DNA of 64,000 nucleotides, taken from positions 2,976,001 to 3,040,000 of the forward strand of contig NZ_CP043732.1 of assembly GCF_014084045.1 (NCBI RefSeq). Reading direction: 5' to 3'. Positions 40,042 through 48,068 of this stretch are shown here, in pieces (position 1 is the stretch's first letter; each line of letters starts with the position of its first letter). This DNA comes from Microbacterium esteraromaticum (GTDB lineage: Bacteria > Actinomycetota > Actinomycetes > Actinomycetales > Microbacteriaceae). The position numbers and the translations under genes are program-made. Below the pieces are notes generated by a model. The model had not been told where the DNA came from. It worked only from the letters and a program-made list of their open reading frames with translations, and searched no databases.

Positions 40042-40497
40042 TCAACTCCCCGGTCGACACATCCACACGTCGACTCCGTCGTCGTGATCGACGACGAAGC
40101 CGTGACGCTCGTAGAGCCGCTGCGCCGCCGAGCCGACCAGCACCTGAAGACGTACGGGAGCGGTGATCCTGGCCAGAACCTCGGTCAGCACGATCGTGCC
40201 GATGCCTCGTCCCTGGAAGCGCTCATCGAGGTAGAACATCTCCGGCCACACCAGATCCCCCTCCGGCCGGAGCGTGATGGTGCCGGCGGTATCGGCGCCG
40301 ACGACGATCATGTGCGTGTGTCGCGGTGAGAAGTGCTCGAGCACGCGGGCCCTGGATCTCCCGTCGTCCCAGCCGACCAACCGCTCCAGGTCCGCGCGGA
40401 GCACACGACTCTTGAGATCCACCACATGATCGACGTCGTCGGATGTCGCGGGCCGCAGACGCACCTCTGCGTGCCGGGTCGGACGAGGACCGGTCAC
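40042..40497 (-). CDS. GNAT-family N-acetyltransferase
   Basis: The 151-residue protein has the GNAT motif A: YLDERFQGRGIGTIVLTE, with the R/Q-x-x-G-x-G/A acetyl-CoA loop, and RLYERHGFVV near the C-terminus. The GTG start at 40497 overlaps the parE stop by GTGA. Small acetyltransferases in this position occur in related genomes; substrate unknown. Convergent with parC. Confidence 0.85.
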   Translation of the reverse strand: MTGPRPTRHAEVRLRPATSDDVDHVVDLKSRVLRADLERLVGWDDGRSRARVLEHFSPRHTHMIVVGADTAGTITLRPEGDLVWPEMFYLDERFQGRGIGTIVLTEVLARITAPVRLQVLVGSAAQRLYERHGFVVDHDDGVDVWMCRPGS

Positions 40498-42614
40498 GCG
40501 TCGATGGACTCCCGGCTGAGCCGGTCGCTGGAGCTCATGATGAACTCGCGGCGAGGCGCCACCTCGCTGCCCATCAGCAGCTCGAAGGTGCGCACGGCGG
40601 CATCGGCCGACTCTGCATCCTCGATCGTGACGCGACGCAGCAGACGCCCGGACTTCTCCATGGTCGTGTTGGCCAGCTGATCGGCATCCATCTCGCCGAG
40701 GCCCTTGTAGCGCTGGATCGGATCCTGCCAGCGCTTGCCGGCCTTCTGCAGCTTCGCGAGCAGAGCGTGCAGCTCGGCCTCGGAGTAGGTGTAGATGGTC
40801 TCGTTCGGCTTGGAGCCCGGGTTCATCACGATCACGCGGTGCAGGGGCGGCACGGCCGAATAGACCCGTCCGGCCTCCACGAGCGGCCGCATGTAGCGGA
40901 AGAAGAGGGTGAGCAGCAGAGTGCGGATGTGCGCACCGTCGACGTCGGCGTCGCTCATCAGGATCACCTTGCCGTAGCGGGCGGCCGAGAGATCGAACGA
41001 GCGGCCCGAGCCGGCGCCGATGGTCGTGATGATCGCCGCGCACTCGGCGTTGCCGAGCATGTCGCTGATCGACGCCTTCTGCACGTTGAGGATCTTGCCG
41101 CGGATGGGCAGCAGGGCCTGGAACTCGCTGTTGCGCGCATGGCGGGCGGTGCCGAGGGCGGAATCGCCCTCGACGATGAACAGCTCGCTCTGTTCGAAGT
41201 CGTTCGATCTGCAGTCGACGAGCTTCGCCGGCAGCGACGACGACTCGAGAGCCGTCTTGCGTCGCTGGGTCTCCTTGTGCGCCCGCGCCGACACGCGCGC
41301 CTTCATCTCGGAGACGATCTTGTCGAGCAGCATCGACGCCTGGTTCTTGTCGTCGCGCTTGTTCGATGCGAACCGCTCGGCGAGCTGCTTTCGCACCACC
41401 TGGGCGACGATCGTGCGCACGGCCGGAGTGCCGAGCACCTCCTTCGTCTGGCCCTCGAACTGCGGTTCGGGCACCGTCACCGTGAGCACGGCGGTGAGGC
41501 CGGCGAGCACGTCGTCCTTCTCGAGCTTGTCGTTGCCGACCTTCAGCCGACGCGCGTTCTGCTCGACCTGACCGCGCAGGGTCTTCAGCAGCTCCTGCTC
41601 GAAGCCCTGCTGGTGGGTGCCGCCCTTGGGCGTGGCGATGATGTTGACGAACGAGCGGACCGTGGTGTCATAGCCGGTGCCCCAGCGCAGCGCGAGGTCG
41701 ACCTCGCACTCGCGCTCGACCTCAGTGGCCTTCATGTGCCCGTCGGGCTGCAGCACGGGCACCGTCTCCGTGAAACGGCCGCTGCCCTGTATGCGCCACG
41801 TGTCCGTCACGGGGGCATCGGATGCCAGGAACTCGACGAACTCGGAGATGCCGCCCTCGTAGAGGTATGAGGTGACCTTCGGCCCGGCGGGTGCATCGCC
41901 CTCGCCTGCGGGGGCAGCGCTCGGACGCTCGTCGCGGATCTCGAGCTCCAGCCCGGGGACGAGGAACGCCGTCTGACGCGCGCGCGTCTCGAGCTCGGGC
42001 AGCTGGAACGCGGCGTCCTTCGTGAAGATCTGCCGGTCGGCCCAATAGCGCACACGCGTGCCGGTGACGCCCTTGGCGACCTTGCCGACGATGCGCAGCT
42101 CGCTGCGCTGCTCGAAGGGAGTGAACGGGGCATCCGGCCGCGGCTCGCCATCGTCGGCGAAGACCCCGGGCTCGCCACGATGGAACGACATCGCGTAGGT
42201 CTTGCCACCGCGGTCGACCTCGACGTCGAGGCGCTCCGAGAGCGCGTTGACGACCGACGCGCCGACGCCGTGCAGGCCGCCGGATGCCGCATACGAGCCG
42301 CCGCCGAACTTGCCGCCCGCATGCAGCTTGGTGTACACCACCTCGACGCCGGTGAGTCCGGTGCGCGGCTCGACGTCGACGGGGACGCCCCGACCTCGGT
42401 CGGTCACCTCGACGCTGCCGTCGTCATGCAGCGTGATGTCGATCTTCGAGCCGTTGCCTGCGACGGCCTCGTCGACGGCGTTGTCGATGATCTCCCACAG
42501 GCAGTGCATGAGCCCTGGCGAGCCGTTCGAGCCGATGTACATGCCCGGACGCTTGCGCACGGCCTCGAGGCCCTCGAGAACCTGGAGATGGTGGGCGGAG
42601 TACTCGGCAGTCAC
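40494..42614 (-). CDS. parE: DNA topoisomerase IV subunit B
   Basis: The 706-residue ATPase subunit carries EIIDNAVDEAVAG (Mg-binding Glu/Asn), SGGLHGVGASVVNALS (ATP lid), and in the TOPRIM domain EGDSALGTARHAR and ILMSDADVDGAHIRTLLL. It pairs with parC. A TAGAAT -10 eight bases before the GTG suggests a leaderless transcript. Confidence 0.88.
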   Translation of the reverse strand: MTAEYSAHHLQVLEGLEAVRKRPGMYIGSNGSPGLMHCLWEIIDNAVDEAVAGNGSKIDITLHDDGSVEVTDRGRGVPVDVEPRTGLTGVEVVYTKLHAGGKFGGGSYAASGGLHGVGASVVNALSERLDVEVDRGGKTYAMSFHRGEPGVFADDGEPRPDAPFTPFEQRSELRIVGKVAKGVTGTRVRYWADRQIFTKDAAFQLPELETRARQTAFLVPGLELEIRDERPSAAPAGEGDAPAGPKVTSYLYEGGISEFVEFLASDAPVTDTWRIQGSGRFTETVPVLQPDGHMKATEVERECEVDLALRWGTGYDTTVRSFVNIIATPKGGTHQQGFEQELLKTLRGQVEQNARRLKVGNDKLEKDDVLAGLTAVLTVTVPEPQFEGQTKEVLGTPAVRTIVAQVVRKQLAERFASNKRDDKNQASMLLDKIVSEMKARVSARAHKETQRRKTALESSSLPAKLVDCRSNDFEQSELFIVEGDSALGTARHARNSEFQALLPIRGKILNVQKASISDMLGNAECAAIITTIGAGSGRSFDLSAARYGKVILMSDADVDGAHIRTLLLTLFFRYMRPLVEAGRVYSAVPPLHRVIVMNPGSKPNETIYTYSEAELHALLAKLQKAGKRWQDPIQRYKGLGEMDADQLANTTMEKSGRLLRRVTIEDAESADAAVRTFELLMGSEVAPRREFIMSSSDRLSRESIDA

Positions 42615-43010: not shown

Positions 43011-44045
43011 TCAGTCGATCACGACGCGCCGCACGGCGGGAGTGAGCCGGGTGATGATCTCCTCGCCGACCGTGTCCACGCGTTCGGCGAGAGCGGTGGC
43101 ATCCGGCTCGCCCGCCGAGCCCGGCCCGAAGAGCACCACGCGCTGACCGACTTCGGCGCCCTCCCAGGAGGCGACGGTCATGCTGGCTCCGTCGATCCGG
43201 AGGACGGGTCGTGTGCCGCCCGGCGTCGCGATCTCCGCTCCGCGCAGTATCGAGGGCAGGCCATGGAAGGCCCCGATGCCGACGCGGACCGCATCGGCAT
43301 CGACCTGCTCGACCGGCGCGGTGAGCCGCGCGATCAGGCTGAGGCCGTCGAGCGGCGGCCCGTCGGCCGACCGGATGCCGTAGCAGAACGCGCCGATACG
43401 GCTGAGCGAGCCGCGCAGTTCCGGGCGCCACCATGCCGCCGCTGACGCTGTCAGGTGCAGCACTTCCGGTGAGCCGCCCGCGTCGACGAGCTGCGCGACG
43501 GCATCGAGGAACACGTGCTGTGCGGTGTCGTCCTCGGCGTCGCTCGCCTCGGCGAGATGGCTCCATACGCCCGCCACCGCCACCGTGCCGCTGCGCTCGG
43601 CTGCGAGGGCGGTCATGACGGCCTCTCGCCACTGCTCAGGACGGAAGCCGTTGCGATGCAGACCTGTGTCGATCTTGAGATGCACGCGCACGCGGGCGCC
43701 CGCTCTCCCGGCTTCGACGATCACGTCGTCGAGGTAGGCGGCCGACCCCACACCGAGGTCGATGTCCGAGGCGATCGCCTCCGCGATCTCCGCACGAGGG
43801 GACGTGGCCCAGGCGTACACCCGCTGATCGGTGAGCGCGCGGATGCGCAGCGCCGTCGCGATGTCGTAGCCGCCGAACCAGGTGACGCCGGCGGCCGCCG
43901 CCTCGGGAACCGACCAGTCGATGCCCAGTCCGTACGCGTCGTCCTTCATCACGAGCAGCAGCTCGGACGGCGCCAGTCGCCGCTGCACCGCGGAGATGTT
44001 GCGGCGGAAGGCACTGCGCGAGATCTCGAGGACGGGTCCTGTCAT
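43011..44045 (-). CDS. Alanine racemase-like barrel subunit lacking the catalytic Tyr (AlrA half)
   Basis: The 344-residue protein has a complete PLP barrel of alanine racemase: PLP lysine K34 in LLVMKDDAYGLG, K124 and R131 in HLKIDTGLHRNGF, H163 in GVWSHLAEAS, S201 and R216 near LTASAAAWW and SRIGAFCYGI. In the C-terminal domain, however, the 20-25 residue segment that should hold the catalytic tyrosine (S-Y-G, Tyr265 of Geobacillus Alr) is missing, and the following Met-Asp pair is replaced by GASMTV. Tyr265 normally acts from the other subunit. The upstream gene supplies that domain. The ATG overlaps that gene's stop (ATGA), so I start at 44045, not the GTG at 44054. Confidence 0.9.
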   Translation of the reverse strand: MTGPVLEISRSAFRRNISAVQRRLAPSELLLVMKDDAYGLGIDWSVPEAAAAGVTWFGGYDIATALRIRALTDQRVYAWATSPRAEIAEAIASDIDLGVGSAAYLDDVIVEAGRAGARVRVHLKIDTGLHRNGFRPEQWREAVMTALAAERSGTVAVAGVWSHLAEASDAEDDTAQHVFLDAVAQLVDAGGSPEVLHLTASAAAWWRPELRGSLSRIGAFCYGIRSADGPPLDGLSLIARLTAPVEQVDADAVRVGIGAFHGLPSILRGAEIATPGGTRPVLRIDGASMTVASWEGAEVGQRVVLFGPGSAGEPDATALAERVDTVGEEIITRLTPAVRRVVID

Positions 44046-44734
44046 GCGATCCACTCCCGCTGTCCGTGCCGGCCGATGACCACGGCCATCTCCATCGCCG
44101 ACAGGCCGCTCACGTCCGACCAGCGCGCCAGCGCTTCACGCGCGCCGCCGGTGCCGCCGAAGTACGTCACGGGCGCGCCGTCTTCGGCATCCCCGCCCTC
44201 CAGGTCGACCACGCACACGTCCATCGCGATGCGACCGACGACGGGCAGCATCGCGTCGCCCACCTGCACCCGCACTCGGTTGCCCAGTGCCCTGAGGATG
44301 CCCTGGGCGTAGCCGCCCGTGACGAGGGCGACGCGCGTGTCCTCCGTCGCACGATGCGTGTATCCGTACGAGACGGCCTCTCCGGCGCGCAGCGGCTTGG
44401 TCGAGAGCACGCGTCCCTGCAGGCGCATCACCGGATCGACGGCCGAGGCACCGGAGGCGTCAGGGATCCCGAAGAGGGCGGACGGATCGACGTCGGCGGT
44501 ACCGGAGAGATGGATGCGCATCCCCGACGCGGCCGACTCGTCGACCGCGTCGGCGTCGACGATCACGTCGGTGATGCCGACGCCGGCCAGGATGCGCGCC
44601 GTCTCAGCGGCACCGTGACCGAAAGCGTCATGGCGCAGGTCGACGAGCGACCCCGGCGCGACGAGCGCCTGCGCGGATCGCTCGAGCGCTCCCCGCGAGA
44701 GGAGCACCCGTGGCAGTGCACTGCTGAATCCCAT
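44042..44734 (-). CDS. Alanine racemase-like Tyr-domain subunit without PLP lysine (AlrB half)
   Basis: The 230-residue protein has a remnant N-terminus (VDLRHDAFGHG, where the PLP lysine is Arg34) but lacks most of the barrel, jumping to a complete racemase C-terminal domain: catalytic Tyr123 in AVSYGYTHRA, Tyr142 in GGYAQG, Met171-Asp172 in GRIAMDVCVVD. These are exactly the residues missing from the next gene. In alanine racemase the active site is built from Lys of one subunit and Tyr of its partner, so the two proteins together could form one complete site. A reduced paralogue serving as a stabiliser is the main alternative. Confidence 0.9.
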   Translation of the reverse strand: MGFSSALPRVLLSRGALERSAQALVAPGSLVDLRHDAFGHGAAETARILAGVGITDVIVDADAVDESAASGMRIHLSGTADVDPSALFGIPDASGASAVDPVMRLQGRVLSTKPLRAGEAVSYGYTHRATEDTRVALVTGGYAQGILRALGNRVRVQVGDAMLPVVGRIAMDVCVVDLEGGDAEDGAPVTYFGGTGGAREALARWSDVSGLSAMEMAVVIGRHGQREWIA

Positions 44735-44749
44735 GACGCTCTCCGGCTC

Positions 44750-45502
44750 TCAGAGCTGAATGGTCTTGAAGCCCTTGTCGTGGATGAACCGCTCGATCGC
44801 GTCCCTGGCGCCCTTCGCGTACTCGTCGAACGCATTCGCCGTCGCGCCGGGGAGGTCGAGCCCGCGCCGGGCGGCGACGGTGGCGACGAGCACGTCCGCA
44901 AGCGCGGGATTGAGCGGCAGCACCGGGCCCTGCACGTTGCCGGCGAAGGCGTTGCGATGGCGGACGAGCTCACCACGGCCGTCGCCTCGCGAGAAGCTGC
45001 CCCGCCCGGCGACCACGGTGCCGTATGCGACGGCCTCGTCGGCCAGCGTCCACTCTGAGGCGTGATCCTCGAAGCCGACCACGTTCGCATCCGGGGTGCG
45101 GACCGTGATGTAGCCGACCCGGCGGTCGCGCGTGCGGGCGACCCGGTACGGCATCACGCCCAGACCGGCGACGCTCTCGCCGTCGGTGAGGTCGATTCTC
45201 TCGCCGAGCAGCTCGGCAGAGCCGCCGACGGCGAACAGCGTGCGATCGTCGCCGATGAACGAACGCAGCTCATCGGCGCGGGCGAGGAAGTCGGCGTGCA
45301 CACCGCGCAGCGCCGAGAGCGGGCCGTTGCCGATCACCACGATGTCGGTGCTCGCGGGCAGCTGCTCGCCGACCCCGACATGCGTGGTCGTCGAGGCGAT
45401 CCCCCTGGCTCTGAGACGCTCCTCGAGGGTGCGCACGTTGCCGCGGTCGCCTGTGATGCCGAGCTCGGCGGGGTACAGCTGAGCGATGCTGATCTCGGTC
45501 AT
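44750..45502 (-). CDS. gatD: GatD-like glutamine amidotransferase subunit lacking the catalytic Cys and His
   Basis: The 250-residue protein is GatD by fold and context: IAQLYPAELGITGDRGNVRT, VVGFEDHASEW and NVQGPVLPLNPALADV. GatD normally has a catalytic Cys in an I-C-G-G-Y-Q-F-L-G loop and a His in G-T-Y-L-H-G-P. Here the first reads FAVGGSAELLG (Val92) and the second NVQGPVLPLNP (Gln191). Both members of the Cys-His dyad are therefore replaced, so it should not release ammonia from glutamine. The scaffold is otherwise intact. It overlaps murT by four bases and is followed 15 bases later by the racemase halves. Confidence 0.9.
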   Translation of the reverse strand: MTEISIAQLYPAELGITGDRGNVRTLEERLRARGIASTTTHVGVGEQLPASTDIVVIGNGPLSALRGVHADFLARADELRSFIGDDRTLFAVGGSAELLGERIDLTDGESVAGLGVMPYRVARTRDRRVGYITVRTPDANVVGFEDHASEWTLADEAVAYGTVVAGRGSFSRGDGRGELVRHRNAFAGNVQGPVLPLNPALADVLVATVAARRGLDLPGATANAFDEYAKGARDAIERFIHDKGFKTIQL

Positions 45503-46818
45503 CGGCGTGCCACCTCCTGGTCGCCGTATCCGAGGATGCGACGGCCGATCATCATCAGCTCGTAGTTGACGAACCACGTCTGCTTGCCGGCCCCGGTCTC
45601 GGGGAACGAGCGCATGATCTCCACGGCCTTCTCCATGTCGGGCTCGACCGTGCCGATCTCGACGCCCGCGTACGCGAGCGCCAGTGCGAGCTGGTGCGCC
45701 TTGTCGCCCGTGACCACGTCGACGCGAGGAAGCGCCGCGAAATCGACGTCGTACAGCCACGAGACGTCCGGCGTCCCCTCATCGATGGCGATCAGGGCTC
45801 GTTCGGGAGTGCCATCGAGAGCGTCCAGGTTCATCTGGATGCTGGGGCCGTTCTTGAACATGACGAACTCGACCTGCTCGCCCGCCGGGTCGCGGCGCAG
45901 CGGGATGACCTCGCCGCGGCCGTAGGCGGGTGCCATGCTCACGAAGCCGGCCGCAGCGCGGTCGACGTCGAACTCGGCGCCGAGCACCCCCGATGCCACG
46001 GCCAGGGCGGCAGCGGCATCGGCGGCGTAGTGCAGACCTCTCGCAGGAAGCGTGATGCGGGCGTCCGCTCCCCCGACGTTCACGACGACCTCGCGGCCGG
46101 AGACCTCTCGCACCTCGGAGAAGGCGTCGCGCTCGATGATGCCGGCGGTACCGCTGCGGGTGTCCACTGCATTGGCGAGGCCGTGCGCCGACGACGCGAC
46201 GATGTCGGATGCGACCCCGAAGAACGTCACCGGGGCGCGCATCGCGTCGACATCGATCTTCGACAGGTACGGGTCGTCGCGGTTGATCACGACATGCGCC
46301 GAGGCGCGCTTCGACGCCTCCAGCATCATGTCGGCGACGCGCTCGGTCTCGTAGAACCGGTACAGCTGATCGACCTGCACGTTCAGCGACAGGATCACCG
46401 ACGGCGAGAGCCGGTCGGCGAGGTCGGCTGCAAAGCCCTCATCGATCTCGAGCACGGCGACGTCCGCCCGGATGCGGCCGGTGAGGGTCGCGTCCGCGAG
46501 CAGCGCACTGGTCACTCCTTGCGGCAGGTTGGCGCCGGTCGGGTTGGTGAAGACCCTCAGCCCGTGAGCACGCAGCACCTCGCTGACCATGTGCGTCGTC
46601 GTGGTCTTGCCGTTGGAGCCGAGCACGAACACCACGCCGTAGCGGAACTGGTCGGCGAGCGTCGGCAGCAGCGACGGGGCGAGACGATTCGTGAGGTAGC
46701 CCGGGAATGCGGATCCTCCCCCGCGCAGACGGGTCGCGAAACGCGCGAGCTTGCCCGCCAGCACGGGGAGGACGTACCGCAGGCCGGCCGAGCGCGCCTG
46801 GGGTGCCGTCGACGTCAT
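45499..46818 (-). CDS. murT: MurT-like Mur ligase lacking the zinc ribbon
   Basis: The 439-residue protein has a Mur ligase ATP loop, [13 protein letters not shown] with K71, [16 protein letters not shown], a [15 protein letters not shown] segment equivalent to the N-x-Y-N-A-L-A-A region, and a DUF1727 C-terminus with [12 protein letters not shown]. Family members carry a four-cysteine zinc ribbon in the middle domain; this protein has no cysteine at all. The KNPAG motif is altered to KNGPS. MurT with GatD normally amidates the alpha-carboxyl of D-Glu2 of lipid II. Here the ligase may activate that carboxyl but use another amine. It overlaps the sigA stop (ATGA). Confidence 0.9.
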
Positions 46819-48068
46819 TCGAGGTAGTCCCGCAGCGACTGCGAACGGCTCGGGTGACGCAGCTTCGCCATGGTCTTCGACTCGATCTGGCGGATGCGCT
46901 CGCGTGTGACTCCGAACGTGTCGCCGATCTGGTCGAGGGTCTTGGGCTGGCCGTCGCCGAGGCCGAAGCGCATCCGGATCACGCCGGCCTCGCGCTCGGA
47001 CAGCGAGTCGAGCAGCTGCTCGAGCTGTCGCTGCAGCATGGTGAAGCCCACGGCGTCGGCGGGCACGACGGCCTCGGTGTCCTCGATGAGGTCACCGAAC
47101 TCGCTGTCGCCGTCCTCGCCGAGCGGGGTGTGCAGCGAGATCGGCTCTCGACCGTACTTCTGCACCTCCACGACCTTCTCGGGGGTCATGTCCAGCTCGC
47201 GCGAGAGCTCCTCGGGAGTGGGCTCGCGGCCCAGGTCCTGCAGCATCTGGCGCTGCACTCGGGCCAGCTTGTTGATGACCTCGACCATGTGCACCGGAAT
47301 GCGGATGGTGCGGGCCTGGTCGGCCATGGCACGGGTGATCGCCTGGCGGATCCACCACGTGGCGTAGGTCGAGAACTTGAAGCCCTTGGTGTAGTCGAAC
47401 TTCTCCACCGCGCGGATCAGGCCGAGGTTTCCCTCCTGGATCAGGTCCAGGAACTGCATGCCGCGACCGGTGTAGCGCTTGGCGAGCGAGACGACGAGAC
47501 GGAGGTTGGCGCCGAGCAGGTGGCTCTTCGCGCGCTGGCCGTCGCGGGCGACCCACTGCAGGTCGAGTCCGAGCTGGCTCGACTTCTCCGCAGCCGACAT
47601 GGTCGACAGCTTCTCCTCGGCGAACAGACCGGCCTCGATGCGCATCGCGAGCTCGACCTCTTCGGCCGCGTTGAGCAGTGCGACCTTTCCGATCTGCTTG
47701 AGGTAGTCCTTGACCGGGTCGGCGGTCGCGCCGGTGATCTGGGTGGAGTAGACGGGGACGTCGTCCTCGTCCTTCGATGTCAGGACGATGGCGCCCGTCG
47801 GCAGCGGCTCGGTGAAGGCGGGCTTCTTGTCGCCCTCCTCGTCATCGGCATCCTCGGTCTCGACGACGACGTCCTCGGCCTCGGCGGCCTCATCGTCCTT
47901 CTTCGCCGTGCGACGGGCGGGGGCCTTCTTCGCGGCGGCCTTCGCCGGCGCCTTGGCAGCCTTCTTCGGCGTCGCCTCGGCAGCGTCGATCGTCTCGGCC
48001 TCGGCGGCCTCGGTCGCGGCGGCGGTCTGCTTGGTCGTCCGGGATTTCTTGCTCGTGGCAGGAGTCAC
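46815..48068 (-). CDS. sigA: Principal RNA polymerase sigma factor, RpoD/SigA
   Basis: The 417-residue sigma-70 protein has a lysine/alanine-rich N-terminus (about residues 1-100), then regions 1.2 to 4: [46 protein letters not shown], the region 2.4 [14 protein letters not shown], region 3 [15 protein letters not shown], and region 4.2 [21 protein letters not shown]. It directs housekeeping transcription. The GTG start at 48068 is preceded by GAAAGG. Its stop overlaps murT, so it is in one coupled operon with cell-wall genes. A GATAAT -10-like hexamer (48179-48184, minus strand) is a weak promoter candidate. Confidence 0.97.

Follow-up and report, generated by a model that had tools for sequence, protein, structure and literature searches.

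Overlapping genes in Microbacterium and its relatives divide a putative racemase between two proteins, with sequence and distribution pointing to wall D-ornithine

The window analysed here is a stretch of 64,000 nucleotides from Microbacterium esteraromaticum, and on its minus strand rpoD, murT, gatD, alrB, alrA and then parE form a row. The murT and gatD homologues were recognised with Pfam; the names rpoD and parE, like that of tsaE below, were assigned by eye from the sequence and not through a family search. The features are:

46815..48068, minus strand: rpoD (sigma factor), named by eye; one border of a conserved interval
45499..46818, minus strand: murT homologue (Mur ligase; Pfam), with zero Cys and hence without the zinc-ribbon cysteines
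44750..45502, minus strand: gatD homologue (Pfam), with the glutaminase Cys replaced by Gly
44042..44734, minus strand: alrB, 230 aa; three beta-alpha barrel units plus a C-terminal domain; carries the Tyr265-type base
44633..44635, minus strand: codon of AlrB Arg34, at the PLP-lysine position
44366..44368, minus strand: codon of AlrB Tyr123, equivalent of the catalytic Tyr265
44219..44224, minus strand: codons of AlrB Met171-Asp172, equivalents of Met312-Asp313
44042..44045, minus strand: 4-nt ATGA overlap of the alrB stop and the alrA start
43011..44045, minus strand: alrA, 344 aa; PLP barrel intact and carrying Lys34; C-domain truncated, the Tyr265 segment missing
43944..43946, minus strand: codon of AlrA Lys34, the PLP lysine, equal to Lys39 of B. 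stearothermophilus Alr
43062..43064, minus strand: codon of AlrA Glu328, at the Tyr354 gate position
40494..42614, minus strand: parE/gyrB-type topoisomerase subunit, identified by eye; closes the conserved interval on the opposite side

A sequence-only reading of this DNA had proposed that the two overlapping genes encode complementary halves of an alanine racemase, and this description stood: both genes are present on the minus strand, and the Pfam N and C domains are split between their products. AlrA contains a complete Ala_racemase_N domain (148.5 bits) and a weak, incomplete C-domain (24.9 bits against a cut-off of 25), and AlrB contains a complete Ala_racemase_C domain (96.6 bits) and gave no N-domain match in Pfam up to E = 1. 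The two domains of the superfamily (PF01168 and PF00842) are thus found in AlrA and AlrB between them, and neither protein reaches the 168-bit cut-off of the NCBIfam equivalog TIGR00492 (AlrA 105.7 bits, AlrB 88.8 bits). The combination of Lys39 and Tyr265 in one chain that marks an alanine racemase occurs in neither product, AlrA having only the Lys and AlrB only the Tyr. The start of AlrA is most likely the ATG at 44045, giving 344 aa, and not the GTG at 44054, because the 4-nt stop/start overlap recurs in 80 of 91 pair loci (duplicates included).

The closest alignments of AlrA are with Streptomyces alanine racemases, and those of AlrB with the C-terminal region of the enzymes from M. tuberculosis and E. 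coli. The predicted folds of both match Alr structures: the AlphaFold model of AlrA (pLDDT 94.9) fits S. lavendulae Alr with a TM of 0.95 over the query, and in that of AlrB (pLDDT 92.8, pTM 0.88) 224 of the 230 residues superpose on M. tuberculosis alanine racemase at 2.1 A, the central part of the barrel being absent. Lys34 and Glu328 of AlrA and Arg34, Tyr123, Met171 and Asp172 of AlrB were confirmed by eye against the DNA. The earlier account of AlrB, that it keeps the latter residues and has lost most of the barrel, held with the correction that three beta-alpha barrel units are retained beside the C-domain. A missed frameshift in one normal alr was excluded because AlrA and AlrB each possess N- and C-terminal parts of their own and because the arrangement recurs across many genera. 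A search of the same genome for a separate complete alr, which the earlier reading had suggested, found one at G000:C1:2029735-2030799, with a tsaE-like gene (named by eye) after it.

In solved alanine racemases the active site is composed of the N-domain of one subunit and the C-domain of the other, and Tyr265', Tyr284', Arg290' and Met312' are contributed by the partner subunit (excerpts of PMC3245724 and PMC3485190). We compared these positions in 72 distinct AlrA/AlrB pairs from many Microbacteriaceae genera, which were selected by similarity and adjacency with no residue filter; an earlier count with the same pattern in 87 AlrA and 78 AlrB had sorted the proteins by Lys39 and Tyr265 themselves and was partly circular, and was therefore repeated on the 72 unfiltered pairs. 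On the AlrA side Lys39 and Tyr43 are present in all 72, Arg136 in 71, and Lys129, His166 and Arg219 in 70 each, the misses being gaps and one Gln (His166 is absent in L032 and L151), and Tyr265 is found in none, Arg290 in two and Met312 in one, which bears out the earlier claim that AlrA keeps its lysine and is without the catalytic Tyr segment and the Met-Asp pair. On the AlrB side Tyr265, Arg290 and Met312 are present in 72 of 72, Arg309 and Asp313 in 70, and the Tyr284 position is occupied by Tyr (67) or Phe (5). The PLP-lysine position of AlrB never holds Lys (62 Arg, 5 Ala, 2 Ser, 1 Thr, 1 Glu and 1 gap). The cut between AlrA and AlrB runs along the border known to separate the two subunits at the alanine racemase site.

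With its complete barrel and all the tested PLP contacts kept, AlrA might be an active PLP enzyme alone, either a racemase with another second base or a catalyst of another reaction, and AlrB a non-catalytic stabilising or regulatory subunit. We consider this very unlikely, since AlrB keeps the catalytic partner residues in every one of the 72 pairs and a mere stabiliser would need no Tyr265, Arg290 or Met312.

Relatives of the pair survive in several other states. In two genomes of one genus (G179 and G126) AlrB has a full-length but dead barrel in which Asp replaces the PLP lysine. Curtobacterium, Herbiconiux and Subtercola have unsplit AlrA-like proteins, with both Lys and Tyr, in tandem with alr, and these stand within or beside the AlrA clades of the tree. 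The full-length tandem of Curtobacterium was considered as another heterodimer and rejected, both copies having Lys and Tyr; it was kept as the unsplit state. All three sampled genomes of a further genus (G073, G136 and G188) have a single ORF beside tsaE with the Lys in its first half and the Tyr in its second, and this long ORF, an AlrA-type half fused to an AlrB-type half, occupies the ordinary place of alr (L308, L309 and L310). In addition to this ORF, G073 and G188 have an ordinary split pair and other genes of the alr type.

The three Agreia genomes sampled (G077, G140 and G192, the sequences of the last being identical to those of the named A. bicolorata record from which L134 comes) each encode two strong Ala_racemase_N proteins, with one weak third match in G140. 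Both strong proteins lack the Tyr265 segment and each has its own AlrB-type neighbour, making two split pairs, and no full-length alr was found in any of the three. Pair 2 stands before tsaE, in the ordinary alr place (L277, L278 and L281), with the barrel protein first and the AlrB-type protein second. Its barrel protein clusters with the ordinary alr from Subtercola (support 100/96), and its AlrB falls into a group (96/94, inner branches not resolved) that also contains three other paralogues and the unsplit AlrA-like proteins found in Herbiconiux and Subtercola. Pair 2 looks like a tandem of the Herbiconiux/Subtercola type from which complementary parts were lost. It is a second, independent split of ordinary alr. 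A D-amino-acid transaminase above the TIGR01121 cut-off was found in none of nine genomes that included the three of Agreia (best 63.5 bits versus 277.45).

The AlrB with a dead barrel, the unsplit AlrA-like paralogues, the second split and the natural fusion together argue for an obligate functional pair. The partition of the catalytic bases in the 72 distinct pairs, the independent split, the fusion and the finding of no full-length alr in any sampled Agreia genome also support, at the level of sequence, the earlier proposal of one active site per AlrA:AlrB heterodimer. It might be asked whether a duplicated alr is simply breaking down without function, AlrA and AlrB each being without parts of the parent enzyme and one Microbacterium genome, G364, having a stop inside its second match. 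This is scarcely credible, and we rejected it on the grounds of conservation: the frames are open, the catalytic bases invariant and the 4-nt overlap conserved in many genera, and the sampled Agreia genomes have no other alanine racemase.

The obligate pair would adopt the geometry of the alanine racemase homodimer with one active site instead of two, and we infer its interface from the sequences. AlrA would bind PLP through Lys34 and give the whole barrel side of the site, and AlrB would give the partner side, with Tyr123, Tyr142, Arg148, Arg168 and Met171. Neither protein would be expected to work as a homodimer, because most of the AlrB barrel and the Tyr segment of AlrA are gone.

Alanine racemase is both a textbook example of a homodimer and a target for drugs. 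AlrAB has in common with Alr (PF01168 plus PF00842, fold-type III) the fold, the PLP lysine, Arg219, His166 and a tyrosine contributed by the partner across the subunit boundary; Alr, however, has two sites and all residues in one chain, whereas AlrAB would be two proteins with one site, and its Tyr354 is replaced by Glu or Asp. The serine palmitoyltransferase LCB1/LCB2 resembles AlrAB as a PLP heterodimer with an interfacial site and with one homologous subunit that has lost the PLP lysine, but it is of fold type I, catalyses a different reaction, has two full-length subunits and is eukaryotic. No split or heterodimeric alanine racemase was described among the open-licence PMC papers listed, as judged by titles and the starts of abstracts. 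With each protein keeping only its half, and with an intermediate, unsplit relatives, a further split and a fusion all surviving today, the family amounts to a natural experiment on shared active sites.

The earlier reading had also suggested a search for co-occurring pairs in Microbacteriaceae, and these were found in many genera: in a search of 199 genomes from which 30 loci were fetched, 26 loci held AlrB with an adjacent AlrA (the window's own included) and the remaining four held full-length or fused forms. Within Microbacterium, where genomes were classed by E value, AlrB was matched in 167 of 198 with an E of 2.1e-21 or lower, 30 matched only at the level of ordinary alr (E 1e-14 to 3e-19) and one gave none. 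One of the 30, G364, carries the pair, so that it is present in 168 of the 198 genomes and absent in 29, with one undecided. Among 44 genomes of named loci, 18 have the pair and 26 have none. An order-wide search at a stringent threshold (E of 1e-57), in which no more than 10 candidates per genome were scored, hit nine of 297 genomes, all of them Microbacterium; at this setting the result is not proof of absence elsewhere. On a ParE tree of 31 genomes, absence of the pair requires four changes, two of them forced by well-supported branches, and therefore was not a single event. A record titled Stenotrophomonas maltophilia P13 (L101) has a contig encoding rpoD and a ParE of Microbacterium type, 88 percent identical to the query; the assembly is probably contaminated.

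The diamino acid of Microbacterium species is D-Orn, L-Lys or DAB, and M. testaceum and M. indicum have D-Orn by a clade statement (excerpt of PMC10757982); the pair is present in both. Published exceptions to the diamino acid of their clades are M. radiodurans, with D-Orn, and M. enclense and M. gubbeenense, of the Lys type. M. schleiferi, listed with Orn in a table of PMC10978784, has the pair, but outside the rpoD-parE interval, and M. invictum, given with Lys in the same source and matched to G211 by identical Alr, lacks it. M. oxydans, which belongs to a clade with D-Orn, has an AlrB protein. The pair is absent from G234 (M. lacticum), G373 (M. dextranolyticum) and G244 (M. flavum, 99 percent), which are L-Lys species or members of an L-Lys clade. 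It is present in M. yannicii, M. jejuense, M. kyungheense, M. resistens and M. murale (its locus only), and M. esteraromaticum has an AlrB protein; these six are D-Orn species or members of a D-Orn clade. For M. aoyamense, which has the pair, and for M. suwonense and M. soli, which have AlrB proteins, our search found no diamino acid. Where a chemotype is obtainable, then, the pair follows D-ornithine in Microbacterium, a correlation that draws on a small sample, five species with a published chemotype, which are related and so do not count as independent cases. The pair offers a testable gene for an old chemotaxonomic character, as the candidate enzyme behind the D-ornithine that separates D-Orn-wall from L-Lys-wall Microbacterium.

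Agromyces and Plantibacter have DAB walls. The four Agromyces, four Cryobacterium and one Plantibacter genomes searched have no pair, and a second Alr-type gene is found in only one of these nine (G413). DAB walls are described for Cryobacterium as well (excerpt of PMC7033078). Because these DAB-wall genomes are without the pair, and only one of nine has a second Alr-type gene, D-DAB can be made otherwise; AlrAB is not the sole source of wall D-diamino acids. Curtobacterium, whose walls contain D-Orn, uses the unsplit version instead of the pair.

In all 40 pair loci that were fetched with both borders, the pair lies inside the rpoD-parE interval and beside a ligase module. The 86 loci fetched with both borders, some of them chosen for holding AlrB, with some genomes recurring and the borderless M. 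schleiferi pair locus not included, comprise 55 with a MurT homologue, 26 with a CofE-like gene, none with both and five with neither. Where murT-gatD is replaced, CofE-like (PF01996) and ATPgrasp_ST (PF14397) genes stand in its place (for example L113:3295-7842 and L098:7770-9567). An all-or-none murT-gatD-alrB-alrA module was considered and dropped because many pair-bearing Microbacterium are without MurT and have the CofE-like and ATP-grasp genes instead. Such a module had been suggested by the 30 Microbacterium genomes without a strong AlrB match, of which 29 are also without MurT, the thirtieth being G364, a carrier of the pair.

Both subunits of the MurT-GatD lipid II amidotransferase (PDB 6gs2, 7q8e, 6fqb and 9sq9) have homologues beside alrB, but the neighbouring GatD homologue differs in having no catalytic Cys: in the 60 rows compared, the window and 59 others (duplicates included), the glutaminase Cys is never present and the position holds 47 Gly, 11 Ala and 2 His. 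The MurT homologues have zero to two Cys in 58 of 60 rows and six or seven in the other two. The two proteins may possibly be a re-used bridge ligase: a ligase that no longer takes ammonia from glutamine and that adjoins a putative diamino-acid racemase leads to the hypothesis that it attaches the bridge amino acid.

Alr is strict for alanine because Tyr265' and Tyr354 lie close together; in lysine and broad-specificity racemases, position 354 is occupied by Thr or Ala (excerpt of PMC3485190). The AlrA of the window has at this position, as Glu328, neither the gate Tyr of alanine racemase nor the small residue of Lyr and Bar, and across the 72 distinct pairs AlrA has Glu in 51, Asp in 17, Ser in one and a gap in three. 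The 72 distinct full-length proteins have Tyr in 57; eight AlrA-like ones among them have Glu (6) or Asp (2), and the other seven His (4), Ala (2) or Gln (1). Tyr354 is also found in pair 2 of all three Agreia genomes and in the fusion protein of G136. An acid at 354 would suit a side-chain ammonium, and the Glu (or Asp) of AlrA is proposed to hold that of a diamino acid. Agreia walls are described as having L-DAB linked to D-Orn, and Subtercola walls as having DAB (excerpt of PMC5945732); the pair-1 AlrA of Agreia has Glu at 354 and the AlrA-like protein of Subtercola has Asp. Lyr and Bar likewise have the Alr fold with the gate Tyr354 replaced and access to diamino acids (PMC3485190), but their replacement is Thr or Ala and their Lys and Tyr are in one protein, and AlrAB differs in both respects.

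A real heterodimer might instead be a second alanine racemase, serving as a backup or for a separate D-Ala pool. The sequence relatives found are chiefly alanine racemases, and Agreia pair 2, with its Tyr354, probably is one; the ordinary pair, however, carries an acidic residue, Glu or Asp, at the position of the alanine gate in 68 of the 72 distinct AlrA (1 Ser, 3 gaps), adjoins a peptidoglycan-type ligase module and shares its genome with an intact alr, and we regard this alternative as unlikely. Of the two products that the earlier reading had left open, D-Ala or a D-diamino acid, the latter is favoured by the Glu or Asp at 354, the intact separate alr and the link with D-ornithine walls.

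We therefore think it probable that AlrA and AlrB form an obligate heterodimeric racemase for D-ornithine, and elsewhere perhaps for D-2,4-diaminobutyrate, that serves B-type peptidoglycan; the complementary and conserved sequences, the gene overlap, the distribution and the gene context are observed, and from them we infer complex, activity, substrate and pathway alike. AlrAB would interconvert L- and D-ornithine in Microbacterium, and the Asp forms perhaps 2,4-diaminobutyrate; the D-diamino acid would then enter the interpeptide bridge of B-type peptidoglycan, attached by the neighbouring ligase module. These findings suggest that many soil and plant bacteria related to Microbacterium carry a racemase split over two overlapping genes, with sequence and distribution pointing to wall D-ornithine.

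A wider reading, which we put forward tentatively and hold a little short of probable, is that the rpoD-parE interval of Microbacteriaceae is a locus for the B-type peptidoglycan bridge. A one-site heterodimeric racemase would make D-ornithine (Glu gate) or D-2,4-diaminobutyrate (Asp gate), and either a MurT-GatD with a dead glutaminase or an unrelated module of CofE-like and ATP-grasp proteins would use the bridge amino acid in place of ammonia and couple it to the D-Glu alpha-carboxyl; the racemase would have arisen by duplication of alr and complementary loss, at least twice.

A further full-length Alr paralogue, with His at the gate position, was seen in records of Okibacterium, Microbacterium, Leifsonia and Homoserinibacter (L249, L250, L251 and L274).
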